A stretch of 64,000 bases of DNA from Aureibaculum algae (GTDB lineage: Bacteria; Bacteroidota; Bacteroidia; Flavobacteriales; Flavobacteriaceae), in NCBI RefSeq assembly GCF_006065315.1, contig NZ_CP040749.1:3300501-3364500 (forward strand), in the 5' to 3' direction. The notes under the pieces were generated by a model, which saw only the letters and a program-made list of their open reading frames with translations, was not told the origin of the DNA and made no database searches. This document shows, piece by piece, positions 1-33,863 of this stretch. Position 1 is the first letter of the stretch. Every line of letters begins with the position of its first letter. The translations under genes and the position numbers were made by a program.

Positions 1-789
1 TTTATCATCTTCGTTAGGACAAAGCTCAACGATATCAAAACCAACGACGTTTTTTTCTTTAAAAACTTGCTTTAAAAAATCTAATGTTTCGTACCATAAT
101 AATCCTCCTGGCTCTGGTGTACCAGTGCTTGGCATAATTGACGGATCAAAAGCATCTAAATCAAATGTAATAAAAACATTCTCAGTCATTAAATCTATTA
201 CATTTTCTACCCAATATTCATTAGTTACCATTTCATGGGCAAAAAATGTTTTCTCGGTATCCATAACCGTTTTCTCAAGAACATCCATACTACGGATTCC
301 AACTTGAATTAAGTTGGTATTTTGACTAGCTTCATAAACAGCACAAGCATGATTACATTTAGTACCTTCATACTCAGGTCTTAAATCGGCATGAGCGTCA
401 ATATGCAAAACAGTTAAGCTATTAAAACATTCGTTAAAAGCTCTAATTGTACCAATAGAAATAGAATGCTCACCACCAAAAATGGTTACGAATTTATTCT
501 TATTGATATACTTTTTAACAGTTTGGTGTACTTCTTCTACCATTGCTTCTGGCGAACTATCTTCTGTAACCGCCTCAGCTAAGAAAACACCTTGTTTGTA
601 AACTTCTGAATCTGTTTCAATATCGTACAGTTCCATGTTTTCTGATGCTTCTAAAAAAGCATCAGGACCTTTGTTTGCACCTTTTTGCCATGTGCTTGTT
701 CCATCATAAGGAACAGGAATTAATACCACTTGTGCTTTTTCAAGTTTTGAATATTCCTGTGGAATTCCAGCATACGTTTTGTTACTCAT
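1..789 (-). CDS. speB: Agmatinase (ureohydrolase family), C-terminus cut by window edge
   Basis: Hydrolyses agmatine to putrescine and urea, the step after arginine decarboxylation. The reading frame opens with ATG at 789 and runs off the left edge with no stop, giving 263 visible residues of a family usually about 300 long. Manganese-binding ureohydrolase motifs are visible: GGEHS near residue 100, DAHADLR near 128 and FDLDAFDP near 225. The start lies inside the end of speA (8-base overlap), so the two are almost certainly co-transcribed and translationally coupled as an arginine-to-putrescine operon. Arginase or formimidoylglutamase would share these motifs. The neighbouring decarboxylase is what favours agmatinase. 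Confidence 0.9.
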   Translation of the reverse strand, partial: MSNKTYAGIPQEYSKLEKAQVVLIPVPYDGTSTWQKGANKGPDAFLEASENMELYDIETDSEVYKQGVFLAEAVTEDSSPEAMVEEVHQTVKKYINKNKFVTIFGGEHSISIGTIRAFNECFNSLTVLHIDAHADLRPEYEGTKCNHACAVYEASQNTNLIQVGIRSMDVLEKTVMDTEKTFFAHEMVTNEYWVENVIDLMTENVFITFDLDAFDPSIMPSTGTPEPGGLLWYETLDFLKQVFKEKNVVGFDIVELCPNEDDK

Positions 790-2179
790 AATAGCCTAAA
801 ATTTTTAAAAAATCTGTGTGTGTTTGTTGTTGTGAAAATAATTTAGTTCTGATGTTCCCATCGCTGTCTTTATCAATTAATATATGTTTAGGTTGCGGAA
901 TTAAACAATGTTGTAATCCTCCAAAACCTCCTATTGATTGTTGGTATGCTCCCGTATTAAAAAAACCAATATATAACGGTTTATCATCTCTATACACAGG
1001 CATGTAAATAGCATTAATATGTTGTTCTGAATTGTAATAATCATCACTATCACAAGTTAATCCACCCAATAAAACCCTTTCATAATTAGAATTCCATCTG
1101 TTAATAGGTAACATTACAAAACGTTTATTTATGGCCCAAGAATCTGGTAACGTTGTGATAAATGAAGAATCAATCATATTCCAATTCTCTCTATCATTTT
1201 GTTTTTTCTGATACAATACTTTGTAAATAGCACCTCCACTCTCTCCTACGGTAAAACTTCCAAATTCTGTAAAGATATTAGGTACGTCAACTTCAGCTTC
1301 CTGACAGGTTAAATTAATTTGATTTACAATTTCATCAATCATATATTCATAATCAAAATCAAATGCTAGTGAGTTTTTAATTGGAAAGCCTCCACCTATA
1401 TTTAGACTGTCTAACGTTGGACAAATCTTTTTCAAGCTAACATAGACTTTCAAACATTTTAACAACTCATTCCAATAATAGGCATTGTCTCTAATACCTG
1501 TATTGATAAAAAAGTGAAGCATTTTTAACGATACCTTCGGATTGTCTTGTATTTGATTTTTGTAAAAAGGTACAATATTTTTATACCCAATACCCAATCT
1601 ACTTGTATAAAATTCAAATTTAGGCTCTTCTTCAGAAGCAATTCTAATACCCACTTTAAATTTACCGTCTATTTCTTCACTTAGTAAACTAATCTCCTCA
1701 TAATTATCAATAATAGGAATACAGTTTTCATGTCCACTATTAATTAATCTTGCAATATTTAATACGTATTGTTCACGTTTAAATCCGTTACAAAGGATGT
1801 AATCTGTGTCTTTGATCTTACCATTTTCTATTAATTTTTCAACAATATTAATATCAAAGGCAGAGGACGTCTCTATATGAATGTCGTTTTTTAAAGCTTC
1901 GTTCAGAACAAAATTAAAGTGCGAACTTTTTGTACAATAACAATAATGGTATTTACCTTTATAATTATGTTTTTCAAAGGCTTTTGCGAACCAACTTTTT
2001 GCGGTATTAATGTTCTCTGAAATTTTTGGTAAATAGCTGAATTTTAAAGGAGATCCGTACTCTTCTACCAATTTCATTAGATCGATATCATGAAAAAGTA
2101 ATTGGTCTTTATCTACTTTAAATTCTTGTTGAGGGAAATCAAATGTCTGATTTATTAAATCAATATATTTTGTATTCAT
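782..2179 (-). CDS. speA: Arginine decarboxylase, short fold-type III PLP enzyme
   Basis: Decarboxylates arginine to agmatine in the cytoplasm. The 465-residue protein has the alanine-racemase-like barrel of the ornithine/diaminopimelate/arginine decarboxylase superfamily. The PLP lysine is K84 in the context CYCTKSSHF, a glycine-rich phosphate loop reads GGGFP near residue 265, and the active-site CDSDD lies near 378. It is much shorter than the enterobacterial biosynthetic SpeA (about 650 residues). Substrate is inferred from the overlapping agmatinase gene; diaminopimelate or carboxynorspermidine decarboxylase are the alternatives. Transcription appears to start about 235 bases upstream, giving a long folded leader (see the RNA feature at 2191-2413). 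Confidence 0.85.
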   Translation of the reverse strand: MNTKYIDLINQTFDFPQQEFKVDKDQLLFHDIDLMKLVEEYGSPLKFSYLPKISENINTAKSWFAKAFEKHNYKGKYHYCYCTKSSHFNFVLNEALKNDIHIETSSAFDINIVEKLIENGKIKDTDYILCNGFKREQYVLNIARLINSGHENCIPIIDNYEEISLLSEEIDGKFKVGIRIASEEEPKFEFYTSRLGIGYKNIVPFYKNQIQDNPKVSLKMLHFFINTGIRDNAYYWNELLKCLKVYVSLKKICPTLDSLNIGGGFPIKNSLAFDFDYEYMIDEIVNQINLTCQEAEVDVPNIFTEFGSFTVGESGGAIYKVLYQKKQNDRENWNMIDSSFITTLPDSWAINKRFVMLPINRWNSNYERVLLGGLTCDSDDYYNSEQHINAIYMPVYRDDKPLYIGFFNTGAYQQSIGGFGGLQHCLIPQPKHILIDKDSDGNIRTKLFSQQQTHTDFLKILGYYE

Positions 2180-2190
2180 TCTTAATTTTA

Positions 2191-2413
2191 AATTTTTATA
2201 TTATTTATTCTTCAAGGTAAAAAAATAATATAAAAATTAAACAAGAATATACATATAGCCTTTCGCTAAGCGAATAAACTTCAGATTATTAAATCCGAGA
2301 TAGGAAGAAGAAACCATAATTTTTTCGTCGTACAAACGTTGCACATTACAATCTAACTTCTTCAAACATAGATTGTAATCGAAAAATGGAAAACTGATCA
2401 CTTAGTTTTTATA
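2191..2413 (-). ncRNA. Structured 5' leader of speA, candidate cis-regulatory RNA
   Basis: Read on the minus strand, the leader contains five hairpins in a row. H1: 11-bp perfect stem, 2345-2355 with 2369-2379, 13-base loop. H2: 6 bp with one G-U, 2330-2335 with 2339-2344, directly abutting H1. H3: 6 bp with one G-U, 2282-2287 with 2292-2297, loop of 4. H4: 5 bp, 2262-2274. H5: 15-bp A/U-only perfect stem, 2191-2205 with 2224-2238, ending 11 bases before the speA start codon. The H1 loop carries GAAGAAG (2357-2363), which is complementary over 7 bases to CUUCUUC at 2304-2310 after H2, the geometry of a pseudoknot. H5 would mask the A/U-rich region needed for Bacteroidota translation initiation. 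The ligand is unknown; polyamine or arginine is a guess from the gene controlled. Confidence 0.6.
2237..2401 (-). CDS. Possible 54-residue ORF inside the speA leader (doubtful)
   Basis: An open frame starts with GTG at 2401 and stops with TAA at 2237, covering exactly the region of hairpins H1 to H4. An in-frame ATG at 2317 would give a 26-residue version. The predicted peptide has no signal sequence or motif I recognise. About 37 percent of its codons end in G or C, more than the neighbouring genes appear to use, and the same bases form perfect stems, so I favour structured RNA over protein. It could still be a regulatory leader peptide like the one upstream of enterobacterial speF. Two further mini-ORFs in other frames (2346-2369 and 2281-2346, joined by TAATG) are probably chance. 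Confidence 0.2.
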   Translation of the reverse strand: MISFPFFDYNLCLKKLDCNVQRLYDEKIMVSSSYLGFNNLKFIRLAKGYMYILV

Positions 2414-2419
2414 GTACAG

Positions 2420-2451
2420 CAAATGTAGAAAAAAAATGAAATAATTGACAA
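2420..2451 (-). promoter_or_regulatory. Bacteroidota-type promoter for speA-speB
   Basis: On the minus strand there is a -33 TTG (2449-2451) and a -7 TACATTTG (2420-2427) separated by 21 bases. This matches the TTG-N19/21-TAnnTTTG consensus and predicts a start near 2413, hence a leader of about 235 bases before speA. Confidence 0.6.
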
Positions 2452-2471
2452 AAAAATATTTTATTTTAATA

Positions 2472-3119
2472 TTAATTATTCTCGAGCTTATTTTTGAACA
2501 CAAACATCAGTATTATGGGAATTGCAAGGACAATTGTAATCATCTTGTTTTGCATAAAAACCTCTGGAAATAAAGCCAATGTTAGTACAAATCCTCCCAC
2601 GGCTCCACCTAAATGTGCACTATGCCCGGTATTACCCAATTGTTTTTTCATACCATACATAGAATACAGTAAATACCCTACACCAAATACATATCCTGGA
2701 ATATCAAAAAACGGGAAGAAAATAAAAGTCAACCTCATATCAGGATTTAACATAATACCTGCGTAAATAATACCCATAACCGCTCCAGAAGCACCAACAG
2801 CACTATAATAAGGATCTTTTTTATGAAAACTCAAGGCTAAAGTACTACCTGCCAACAAACTCCCTAAATAAATAATTACAAATTTAAAAACTCCTAATTG
2901 ATCAATTACAGGATCAGCAAAAATATATAAAGCAAACATGTTAAAAAACAAATGAGCTTGATCTACATGCAAGAACCCTGAAGTAAACATACGCACCTGC
3001 TCACCATTTAAAATGGGACCAATTTGAAATTTATATCGTTCAAAAAAAGATCTATCAGAAAATCCTTTTAAAGAAATTAATACATTTATGACAATTAATG
3101 CGACTACGGCGTAATTCAT
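2472..3119 (-). CDS. Rhomboid family intramembrane serine protease
   Basis: A 215-residue integral membrane protein with about six hydrophobic segments. The catalytic serine sits in VGASGAVMG (S111) and the histidine in SAHLGGAVGG (H169), the Ser-His dyad of rhomboids. The HLFFNMFALY stretch near residue 57 matches the oxyanion-side histidine and asparagine of the family. It would cleave membrane proteins within the bilayer; the substrate cannot be told from sequence. The gene is transcribed away from the acyltransferase at 3291, and a -7-like TATCTTTG (3138-3145, minus) lies about 20 bases before the start. Confidence 0.9.
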   Translation of the reverse strand: MNYAVVALIVINVLISLKGFSDRSFFERYKFQIGPILNGEQVRMFTSGFLHVDQAHLFFNMFALYIFADPVIDQLGVFKFVIIYLGSLLAGSTLALSFHKKDPYYSAVGASGAVMGIIYAGIMLNPDMRLTFIFFPFFDIPGYVFGVGYLLYSMYGMKKQLGNTGHSAHLGGAVGGFVLTLALFPEVFMQNKMITIVLAIPIILMFVFKNKLENN

Positions 3120-3137
3120 TTGTACTTATAATTTGTT

Positions 3138-3145
3138 CAAAGATA
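3138..3145 (-). promoter_or_regulatory. -7 box TATCTTTG for the rhomboid gene
   Basis: Perfect TAnnTTTG on the minus strand, 19 bases before the rhomboid ATG. The nearest TTG (3168-3170) is 22 bases away, slightly long, so only the -7 element is well supported. Confidence 0.4.
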
Positions 3146-3187
3146 AATTATATAACGATATTTGTCGCAAAATAAATTTGATAATTT

Positions 3188-3195
3188 TATTTTTG
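3188..3195 (+). promoter_or_regulatory. -7 box TATTTTTG upstream of the acyltransferase gene
   Basis: Matches TAnnTTTG. The best TTG upstream (3162-3164) is 23 bases away, so the match is partial. Use of this box would give a leader of about 90 bases carrying the two hairpins at 3225-3271. Confidence 0.35.
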
Positions 3196-3224
3196 CTTCA
3201 CCCGCAATTACTTAAATAATTGTG

Positions 3225-3271
3225 ACCACGCTATGAGCGTGGTAAATAGGAAACGTCGATGCAGTCATCGA
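3225..3271 (+). ncRNA. Twin hairpins in the acyltransferase leader
   Basis: First hairpin ACCACGC/GCGTGGT (3225-3231 with 3237-3243, loop of 5). Second hairpin TCGATG/CATCGA (3256-3261 with 3266-3271, loop of 4). They are GC-rich islands in an AT-rich spacer, separated by 12 bases, and end 19 bases before the ATG at 3291. There is no U-run, so they do not look like a terminator. They could be a cis-regulatory RNA, an operator pair, or a small RNA of either strand. I do not recognise a known family. Confidence 0.35.
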
Positions 3272-3290
3272 AGAATTATTTATATTGATT

Positions 3291-4190
3291 ATGCAATTGT
3301 TAAGTTATATTCTTGTCTATCCTTTTATATGGCTCTTGTCTATACTACCTTTCAGAGTGTTACATTTTATTTCTGATGCATTCTATTATTTACTTTACTA
3401 TATCATTGGATATCGAAAAAAAGTTGTTTTCGACAATTTACAATTAGTTTTTCCGGAAAAGTCTGATGAAGAAATTACGCGTATTGCCAAAAAATCTTAC
3501 AGACATTTTGTAGATGTTTTTGTTGAAATCATAAAACTGTTTACAATTTCGAAAAAACAATTGGCAAAAAGATATAAAATTGGCAATATTGATGTACTGA
3601 AAAAACTTGAAAAACAGAATAAAAGTACCCTTTTAATGGGTGGACATTACGCCAATTGGGAATGGATCTTTTTATTGAATACGCAAGTTAGTTTTAATGG
3701 CTATGCTGTTTACAAAAAGATAAATAATAAATACTTCGATAAAAAAATAATAGAAACCAGAGGTCGATTTAATACCAACTTGGTCAACACAAAAAAAATC
3801 TTTTCTGTGATGAATAAAAACACCGAAGAGAATAGATTATCTCTTTATGGTTTTTTAGGTGATCAATCGCCGCAAGTTACAAAAGCACATTATTGGTCGC
3901 ACTTTTTGGGTGTAGACAACTTACCTATACACACGGGTGCTGAGCACTTGGCAAAAAAATATGATCTTCCTGTGGTATTTTTTAAAACCAAACGTGTAAA
4001 ACGTGGGTATTATGAGGTTAATTTTGAATTGATTACTGATGAACCACAATCCTTTAAAGATTATGATATCACAGATATTTACTTAAGAAAAGTGGAAGAA
4101 GAAATAAAAGAAGCCCCTGAATATTATTTTTGGACGCATAAGCGATTTAAACATCGAGGCAAGAATTTGTTAAAAAAGAATCAGGACTAA
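3291..4190 (+). CDS. Lysophospholipid / lipid A acyltransferase (LpxL/HtrB-like)
   Basis: Likely transfers a secondary acyl chain to lipid A or a related lipid at the inner membrane. The catalytic HX4E motif is present as GGHYANWEW (H119, E124), and the N-terminus has a hydrophobic anchor (about residues 1-40). An upstream in-frame TTG at 3285 only adds two residues; I chose the ATG at 3291, giving 299 residues, the usual family size. The gene is monocistronic and converges with the aminotransferase gene at 4286. Lipid A modification is inferred from family; some Bacteroidota members of this family act on other lipids such as aminolipids. Confidence 0.8.
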   Translation: MQLLSYILVYPFIWLLSILPFRVLHFISDAFYYLLYYIIGYRKKVVFDNLQLVFPEKSDEEITRIAKKSYRHFVDVFVEIIKLFTISKKQLAKRYKIGNIDVLKKLEKQNKSTLLMGGHYANWEWIFLLNTQVSFNGYAVYKKINNKYFDKKIIETRGRFNTNLVNTKKIFSVMNKNTEENRLSLYGFLGDQSPQVTKAHYWSHFLGVDNLPIHTGAEHLAKKYDLPVVFFKTKRVKRGYYEVNFELITDEPQSFKDYDITDIYLRKVEEEIKEAPEYYFWTHKRFKHRGKNLLKKNQD

Positions 4191-4245
4191 AAAAAGTCTT
4201 GAGTCTGCCGTTGTAACTACAAACAAGCATCTGAAAATATTAAAT

Positions 4246-4274
4246 AGACACCCCAAAAGTAACCTCTAGGGGCC
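4246..4274. repeat. Degenerate copy of a dispersed CACCCC...AGGGG element
   Basis: Resembles the better copies at 15561 and 31709: a GACACCCC block followed about 14 bases later by CTAGGGGCC. It lies between the convergent ends of the acyltransferase and aminotransferase genes. Similarity is partial, so this copy is tentative. Confidence 0.3.
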
Positions 4275-4285
4275 AATTACATCTA

Positions 4286-5764
4286 TTAAACTTCAAACCA
4301 TTTCTCTACCAACTGCTTTTCATATTGGTCACTCCCGATAAATTCAAATTCATTGGAAACGGCATTGTAATTATAATCATTTTTCCATTCATTAAAATAA
4401 AGACATAATTCCTTGATGCTTTCACAAACGTAATTAACCTCTTCATTTGTAATGGTTGGGTGTATTGACATTCTAATCCATCCCGGACGTTCAATTAAAC
4501 AGCCTTCTTCAATTTTCGCTTTATACTGTTCAGAAGTTGGCAAATCTATATGTAATAAAATATGACCATAAGTACCCGCACAAGAACAACCACCTCTGGT
4601 TTGAATTCCAAATTTATCATTTAACAACTTAACACCAAGGTTATAATGTAAATCGTCTATAAAAAAAGAAAAAATACCCAATCTATCTTCATGTTCTGCT
4701 GCCAATACATGTAAGTTATCTAACTCTTTTAGTTTTTCAAAAACTATTTCATTAATCTCATGCTCACGAGCTAATATTTTTTCAGAGCTCATTTTTTCTT
4801 TTAACTGAATAGACAATGCTATTCTTATCGTTTGCAAAAAACCAGGAGTTCCTCCATCTTCTCTTAATTCAATATCTTCAATATACCTATGGTCTCCCCA
4901 CGGGTTGGTATAAGTAACTGTACCTCCACCAGGGTTATCAGGTACCGTATTGTGATACAATTCATCACAAAAAATTAACACTCCAGAAGTACCCGGACCA
5001 CCTAAAAATTTGTGTGGTGAAAAAAGTACTGCATCTAACTTTTCAGCTTCATCTTCAGGGTGCATATTTATAGGCACATAAGGAGCAGAACAAGCAAAAT
5101 CGACAAAACAATAACCTCCATAAGCATGAATAATTTTTGCCATTCTATGATAATCTGTTCTAATTCCAGTAACATTAGAACATGCCGTAATTGACGCTAT
5201 TTTAATTTTTCTATCCTTGTATTTTTCCAATAATTTTTCGAAGCTTTTAAAACAAACCAATCCTTTTTCTTCACAAGGGATAACCTCAACATCTGCAATG
5301 GTTTCCAACCAAGAAGTATGGTTAGAGTGATGTTCCATATGCGTTATAAAAACAATAGGTTTTAAATCTTCAGGTACGTTGGTAAAATCACGCATACTTT
5401 CTGGAACACGCAATCCTAAAATACGTTGAAATTTATTAATTACACCTGTCATTCCTGTTCCCGATGTAATTAAACAATCCGTATTCTTGGCATTAACATG
5501 TTGCTTAATAATATCTCGAGCTTTGTGATATGCATGTGTCATGGCAGAACCTGTAATTGAAGTTTCCGTATGTGTATTGGCCACAAAGGGACCAAAATCA
5601 TTCATTATTTTTTCTTCAATAGGTCTATATAATCTACCACTGGCGGTCCAGTCTGTATAAATAACTTTCTTTTTACCATACGGAGATTCAAAGTATTGTT
5701 CTACTCCAATAATATGTTTTCTGAACTGTTGAAAATAAGACTCTAAAGAAGATTTATTACTCAT
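4286..5764 (-). CDS. Class V aminotransferase (cysteine desulfurase-like)
   Basis: PLP enzyme of the aminotransferase class V fold (492 residues from the ATG at 5764). The TTG-initiated extension to 5800 adds a poor N-terminus and is rejected. The PLP-binding lysine is in FSPHKFLGGPGTSG near residue 255. HMEHHSNHTSW near 150 matches the PLP-stacking histidine region of SufS/Csd proteins, and GGCSCAGTYGH near 385 places two cysteines where the SufS catalytic loop lies. It may release sulfur from cysteine or act as a lyase on a related substrate. No suf or isc gene is adjacent, so a dedicated Fe-S role is not supported by context. Confidence 0.75.
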   Translation of the reverse strand: MSNKSSLESYFQQFRKHIIGVEQYFESPYGKKKVIYTDWTASGRLYRPIEEKIMNDFGPFVANTHTETSITGSAMTHAYHKARDIIKQHVNAKNTDCLITSGTGMTGVINKFQRILGLRVPESMRDFTNVPEDLKPIVFITHMEHHSNHTSWLETIADVEVIPCEEKGLVCFKSFEKLLEKYKDRKIKIASITACSNVTGIRTDYHRMAKIIHAYGGYCFVDFACSAPYVPINMHPEDEAEKLDAVLFSPHKFLGGPGTSGVLIFCDELYHNTVPDNPGGGTVTYTNPWGDHRYIEDIELREDGGTPGFLQTIRIALSIQLKEKMSSEKILAREHEINEIVFEKLKELDNLHVLAAEHEDRLGIFSFFIDDLHYNLGVKLLNDKFGIQTRGGCSCAGTYGHILLHIDLPTSEQYKAKIEEGCLIERPGWIRMSIHPTITNEEVNYVCESIKELCLYFNEWKNDYNYNAVSNEFEFIGSDQYEKQLVEKWFEV

Positions 5765-33791: not shown

Positions 33792-33863
33792 GCCCTCGTA
33801 GTTCAATGGATAGAATAGAAGTTTCCTAAACTTTAGATCCAAGTTCGATTCTTGGCGAGGGTA
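33792..33863 (+). tRNA. tRNA-Arg (anticodon CCT)
   Basis: A 72-base cloverleaf. Acceptor GCCCTCG (33792-33798) pairs with CGAGGGT (33856-33862), with one G-U at the top; discriminator A at 33863. The anticodon loop TTCCTAA is closed by GAAGT/ACTTT, and the T arm is CCAAG-TTCGATT-CTTGG. Anticodon CCT reads AGG. The CCA end is not encoded. It lies in the gap between menC and the UPF0173 gene, on the opposite strand to both. Confidence 0.95.

Follow-up and report, generated by a model that had tools for sequence, protein, structure and literature searches.

A pseudoknotted and mostly unannotated leader gene upstream of speA suggests an undescribed polyamine control switch in Flavobacteriaceae

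Leader peptides provide the closest described systems. For SpeFL, the portions of the sources consulted describe sensing of ornithine, inhibition of RF1 and an effect on Rho binding (PMC8429421, PMC7815308). For TnaC, whose reading frame closes with UGA, the portion consulted reports that the last two residues keep bound RF2 from releasing the peptide (PMC8429421). The titles and abstract openings searched described no flavobacterial speA leader.

The window analysed here is a 64,000-nt stretch of the Aureibaculum algae genome (NZ_CP040749.1, 3,300,501 to 3,364,500), in which the arginine decarboxylase gene speA (782..2179, minus strand; 465 aa) is followed by an agmatinase gene (1..789, minus strand, continuing beyond the window edge; TIGR01230, 218 bits with a cut-off of 174). 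The best NCBIfam models for the speA product were those of biosynthetic arginine decarboxylase (151 bits, under the curated cut-off of 369), and it matched the PDB arginine decarboxylases 3n2o, 3nzq and 3nzp. As the agmatinase gene overlaps the end of speA by 8 nt, the unit should convert arginine to putrescine. The promoter with both boxes that the initial annotation had placed upstream (2420..2451, minus strand) was found by sequence and pattern scan, with TTGTCA at 2451-2446 and a -7 box, TACATTTG, at 2427-2420 that fits TAnnTTTG, which we take to be the flavobacterial -7 motif, though it scored as a 9/12 sigma-70-like site only and such sites were not in excess in this region (26 found, 27.4 expected from shuffles). 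Transcription would probably start near 2414 and give a 235-nt leader.

The 245-nt stretch from 2414 to 2170 folded at -53.6 kcal/mol (z = -4.5), with none of 200 shuffles as good. The consecutive hairpins reported earlier are present, and the first of them proved to be P2 of a three-way junction P1/P2/P3 that is closed by P1 (all on the minus strand). In P1, UUUUUCG (2380..2386), which is invariant in the six leaders of the window lineage, pairs with CGAAAAA (2321..2327); P2 has 11 bp (2345..2379; 2379-2369 with 2355-2345) and P3 has 6 bp and a 3-nt loop (2330..2344), and both hairpins show changes on both sides of pairs. The loop match claimed by the initial annotation was also borne out, as GAAGAAG in the P2 loop (2363-2357) is complementary over 7 bp to CUUCUUC (2310-2304), and these seven pairs are kept in 6/6 window-lineage rows. 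That annotation had proposed a search of Rfam including Flavo-1; the Rfam 15 covariance models (including Flavo-1, SAM and riboswitches) gave only tRNAs at gathering score in the window and 19 related loci, and under permissive settings the leaders of the window and of one relative (L020) gave sub-threshold matches only. Within the window, the gathering score is reached once, by a tRNA at 33792-33863.

The initial annotation missed an open reading frame that makes up most of this finding. This upstream ORF (uORF; 2237..2401, minus strand) has a GTG start and a TAA stop, encodes the 54-aa peptide (M)ISFPFFDYNLCLKKLDCNVQRLYDEKIMVSSSYLGFNNLKFIRLAKGYMYILV, is unannotated in the window and runs through the whole RNA structure with its 54 codons; its 3' part (2237..2303, minus strand) encodes a conserved C-terminus, here ending in KGYMYILV. 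For comparison, 89 leaders were assembled from 80 SpeA loci (the best 80 of at least 588 confirmed loci), eight of nine loci from the same genus, the ninth being the window itself, and L008, which has the leader and no SpeA; L097 was dropped as a duplicate record of L014. One kind of uORF was found in 75 of the 89 leaders, in 69 by profile and in the six of the window lineage by position. Its start codon was TTG in 50, ATG in 17 and GTG in eight (the six window-lineage starts being set by hand), and all 75 were 53-60 residues long, 46 of them exactly 55. The last residue was V, I or L in 75/75 and the third-last I, L, F or V in 74/75; the penultimate residue was arginine in 20 and glutamine in 29. 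F at -11 together with P at -9 occurred in 57/75, and this F-x-P is absent from the window lineage. Majority-type uORFs were also found in four genomes of the window's genus (L098-L101), so that both types occur within one genus. NCBIfam held no family for the two uORF peptides searched.

Nine of the other 14 leaders carried a different uORF (eight Flavobacterium-like, one from Maribacter), and no uORF was recognised in five (Leeuwenhoekiella, Christiangramia, Muriicola). The Flavobacterium-like uORFs (L072, L073, L077, L082, L083, L089, L090, L092) end in NIRV or NLRV; seven of the eight close with UGA, and two of the eight fold better than z -2 relative to codon-randomised versions. These leaders perhaps exert the same kind of control through an unrelated-looking peptide.

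The initial annotation had named alignment of related leaders as the check on its reading, and conservation with compensatory changes was found in three sets: A1 (57 majority-type rows), the six window-lineage rows, kept separate, and A3 (21 further copies). Thirteen of the 75 uORFs were excluded from both A1 and A2, namely ten diverged rows (L025, L040, L028, L029, L036, L038, L039, L043, L047, L056) and three near-duplicates (L100, L101 and L095, the last restored in A2), so that covariation was counted over leaders in which the fold is retained. Over the 26 pairs of A1, 95.5% of cells were paired, and both-sided changes were seen in 14 pairs and 62 cells, compared to 15.8 cells in shuffles (0/500 reached 62); covariation was 0.192, compared to at most 0.076 for slid partners, of which at most 55.7% were paired. 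These changes fell in one of five P1 pairs, six of nine P2 pairs and all six P3 pairs, and the pseudoknot helix was 98.8% paired. The window lineage had 96.8% of cells paired and both-sided changes in four pairs and five cells, including two of the 11 P2 pairs and one pseudoknot pair; shuffles were as high in 9/500 (pairs) and 2/500 (cells), the set being small and three of its rows near-identical. A3 had 81.4% of cells paired, with both-sided changes in 19/26 pairs and in 64 cells compared to 25.2 in shuffles; the contributions of P1 (4/5), P2 (8/9) and P3 (6/6) lean towards structure, as A3 was aligned to R1, a covariance model built here from the majority type (type B) that holds P1-P3 and no pseudoknot.

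The pseudoknot, being absent from R1, was assessed separately in A3, where 88.1% of its cells were paired compared to at most 52.4% for slid partners. Its six both-sided cells (2.4 in shuffles, 6/500 as high) all lay at the outer pair, which showed five pair types, and this single pair with both-sided change was no more than in shuffles. The core GAAG/CUUC is almost invariant, so that the pseudoknot is supported by the outer pair, by its different register in leaders of the window lineage and by the slid controls. RNAalifold on A1 recovered P1 and most of P3, and recovered neither P2 as named nor the pseudoknot. It instead paired the 5' strand of P2 with a pseudoknot strand, with no both-sided change, and proposed longer-range helices (columns 17-19/107-109 and 24-27/99-102; one both-sided pair, in one sequence), which are possible alternative pairings according to this model. 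By eye, a candidate extra 5' helix, UUAGCU/AGCUAA, was seen in the majority type only.

The P1-P2-P3 junction with a pseudoknot from the P2 loop, which defines the majority type, is found in all six window-lineage rows. Counted from the start codon, the elements lie at 16-22/75-81 (P1), 23-33/47-57 (P2), 58-72 (P3) and 39-45/92-98 (pseudoknot) in the window, and at 19-23/75-79, 24-32/48-56, 58-63/67-72 and 38-43/91-96, respectively, in the majority type. Judged from the sequences, the two types are a common design written in different letters, with P3 at exactly the same 58-72. Unpaired stretches are nearly invariant within the majority type, and most unpaired nucleotides differ between it and the window lineage.

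Codon-sharing, folding and stop-codon tests were run on 55 of the 57 A1 rows (L098 and L099 left out). At equal residues, 1212 pairs of these diverged leaders used the same codon at a rate of 0.86 in codons 7-32, compared to 0.60 and 0.50 in two stretches of speA, 0.52 in the final 20 uORF codons and 0.46 in the final 10, a contrast which argues that the first part of the uORF is conserved at the nucleotide level and the last part more for its peptide. The rate was 0.92 (few sites) in codons 2-6, which precede the fold, so the fold alone does not explain the codon sharing. Compared to codon-randomised versions, the first half folded with a mean z of -3.41 in five window-lineage leaders (L095 left out; 5/5 below -2), -2.20 in the 55 others (36/55 below -2) and -0.29 in nine of the ten diverged leaders (L040 left out; 1/9 below -2, L056); z for L008 was computed with the codon usage of L102. 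The other eight of these nine, all from Arenibacter, kept the peptide end with a first half that showed no excess folding. R1 run with filters off still gave weak to moderate scores on diverged Arenibacter leaders (40.2 bits for L025, 30.1 for L028, 24.6 for L036), which argues against complete loss of the fold in that genus. For the 3' part of the uORF (window 2240-2305), mean z was -2.07 in the window lineage (2/5 below -2) and, weakly, -1.34 in the 55 others (17/55 below -2); this excess indicates that the part is not purely constrained as peptide, and folding predicts a possible further hairpin at 2240-2305.

UGA closed 51 of the 55 majority-type uORFs, compared to 9 of 241 long open frames at the same loci (Fisher 6e-43, calculated over related species that are not independent). 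Counted over all 75 uORFs, stops were UGA in 52, UAA in 14 and UAG in nine, with UGA in only one of the 20 uORFs beyond the 55; in a second set, probably drawn partly from the same species, 43 of 46 speA-linked uORFs ended in UGA. On these sequence counts, majority-type uORFs appear to have a selected UGA stop. In the window and its closest relatives the uORF ends in UAA or UAG, which argues against a universal role of UGA.

In the window, the spacer between the uORF stop and speA folds with z = -4.0 into an A/U stem (H5; 2191..2238, minus strand). As stated previously, 11 nt separate the stem from the speA ATG (2179), while its length is 16 bp rather than the 15 given; its 5' arm starts inside the uORF stop codon, with the second base. 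Spacer structure in 74 leaders (L008 left out) had a mean z of -1.64; 32/74 fell below -2 and 42/74 did not, and the spacer hairpins showed no sequence conservation.

R1 matched 117 of 249 sampled family genomes, representing 111 of 235 genera, with two copies in three genomes, and matched none of the 295 genomes sampled from the class, among which there was no positive control. Whole-genome searches with R1 do not report the window's own leader; with filters off, the model matched the window locus (L094) with E 0.003 in 99 kb (27.8 bits), the match beginning 12 nt upstream of the uORF start, in the same register as the model. We examined 51 of the 120 R1 matches (the 30 best and 21 chosen for low score or as second copies), of which 47 precede SpeA, three precede a secreted-looking protein of about 100 residues and one lies at a contig end. 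A uORF of 40-80 codons was present in 49 of the 51, one of them cut by the contig end. The two copies with no uORF call are L140, whose uORF lies outside the start range searched, and L134, which precedes the secreted-looking protein, has no start in range and in-frame stops by eye, and yet keeps most pairs, as would suit an RNA-only function.

The extra copies before the secreted-looking protein (about 100 aa) are L134, L135 and L137, and the protein matched no Pfam or NCBIfam family at cut-offs. Only three of 30 loci with homologues of it have the element upstream, and L177 has it downstream; in many of the genomes listed for both, the speA element has a homologue of the protein no more than about 10 kb away. 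A complete window-type leader lies at about 1519-1800 of L008 (genome G012), beside the same rhomboid-like gene. Other genes follow it, and that genome, which is 79% complete, gave no SpeA match.

Overall, the leader combines a covarying fold with an open frame that is constrained in its start, length, end and, in the majority type, stop, and that is linked to speA; translation in vivo, gating, arrest, the ligand and the direction of control are inference. We give a probability of roughly one half to the reading that this is a translated regulatory leader, in which an RNA gate and a termination-arrest peptide that senses polyamine or arginine would control speA and the agmatinase gene. The first 100 nt or so of a uORF of about 55 codons would fold as the three-way junction with its loop-to-3' pseudoknot, and P1, which starts 15-18 nt past the start codon's first base, would, given the size of the ribosome footprint, face the mRNA entry side of a ribosome during initiation, so that the pseudoknotted fold could gate entry into the uORF. 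The last 20 or so codons would encode a peptide end that slows or arrests termination, with a selected UGA in most relatives, according to how much arginine, agmatine or polyamine is present; termination arrest is proposed by analogy with TnaC and SpeFL, and the peptide end may act otherwise. A ribosome's presence or absence at the uORF stop would then determine if the hairpin that separates uORF and speA can form. Because the A/U stem of the window starts within the stop codon, an arrested ribosome would keep it open and permit translation of speA. A tentative and, on balance, doubtful extension is that the pseudoknotted RNA gate and a nascent-peptide sensor of arginine or a polyamine, dependent on UGA in most species, are two switches in series that lineages have kept or lost separately. 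Antizyme-like polyamine frameshifting at the pseudoknot was set aside, the frame being open to the conserved C-terminus.

A true riboswitch, in which junction and pseudoknot form an aptamer for arginine, agmatine or a polyamine, with the ORF playing a secondary or passive part, is a serious rival, as a direct spermidine aptamer exists elsewhere according to the consulted part of PMC10853860. The strong covariation, the near-invariance that majority-type leaders show in their unpaired stretches, the retention of most pairs in L134, where no ORF was found, and the three extra copies before a different gene all speak for it. We nevertheless consider it rather unlikely, because most unpaired nucleotides differ between the window lineage and the majority type, because the eight Arenibacter leaders (one genus, perhaps one event) keep the peptide end in the absence of excess folding, and because the UGA stop and the terminal residues would be left unexplained. 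The sensor-RNA reading of the initial annotation thus stands as far as a conserved pseudoknotted speA leader in Flavobacteriaceae is concerned, while the riboswitch label is unproven and the RNA sits in a uORF that appears to be selected in its own right at its C-terminus and, in most relatives, at its UGA stop.

The conserved length and C-terminus, together with nine database proteins, nameless or hypothetical, that match a composite query, would also suit an ordinary small protein co-transcribed with speA, whose RNA fold tunes its own translation. This is improbable given that the N-terminal half is conserved more as RNA than as protein, that the start is mostly UUG and that the majority-type UGA stop appears selected. 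Classical attenuation, with stalls at arginine codons under low charged tRNA-Arg switching a terminator, could draw on the share of AGG (61) and CGA (59) among the 189 arginine codons of 55 uORFs ahead of an arginine-consuming gene. However, codons 13 (AGG) and 26 (CGA), which are the conserved ones, lie within or beside paired strands, the window has TTG and GAA at these codons, and a scan for terminator-like sites, confined to the window, found six in 1-5000 and none inside 2180-2430, which makes this explanation very improbable.

The arrangement of two switches in series, if real, would sense polyamine supply through both an RNA and a peptide in much of the Flavobacteriaceae, and the mostly unannotated leader gene suggests an undescribed polyamine control switch. 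To our knowledge, little is known about the control of polyamine synthesis in Bacteroidota, and an element present in 111 of 235 sampled genera, lacking an Rfam match and rarely annotated, offers a handle on it. One sequence selected both as pseudoknotted RNA and as peptide would be an unusual case, and a majority-type stop chosen against a 4% background would make release-factor choice and nascent-peptide control testable together.

As in termination-arrest leader peptides, a short ORF with a conserved C-terminus precedes the presumed regulated gene, and we know of no conserved three-way junction in TnaC. According to the part of PMC8429421 consulted, TnaC shares its penultimate arginine with 20 of the 75 uORFs here and differs in being 24 aa long, ending with a proline and sensing tryptophan. 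The spermidine riboswitch, a SAM-I variant, is likewise a structured leader of polyamine biosynthesis genes, and differs, in the consulted part of its description, by its SAM-I aptamer fold and control of transcription termination (PMC10853860), a SAM-family match being absent here. The Flavo-1 motif is also a structured Flavobacteriaceae RNA (PMC9723704, in part), and the speA leader gives no Flavo-1 match. MdtU, upstream of the spermidine exporter genes mdtJI, is another uORF that is conserved mainly at its C-terminus and stops about 100 nt before a polyamine gene, but it serves an exporter, is spermidine-induced and Rho-linked and has 34 codons, and the consulted part of PMC7815308 mentions no embedded pseudoknot. 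SpeFL-speF of E. coli and relatives likewise has a leader ORF upstream of a polyamine-synthesis decarboxylase (PMC8429421, PMC7815308, both in part), and termination arrest at the leader stop codon would be the SpeFL-like step of the reading proposed here. Unlike SpeFL, the ORF described here has about 55 codons, mostly ends in UGA and carries a conserved pseudoknotted RNA.
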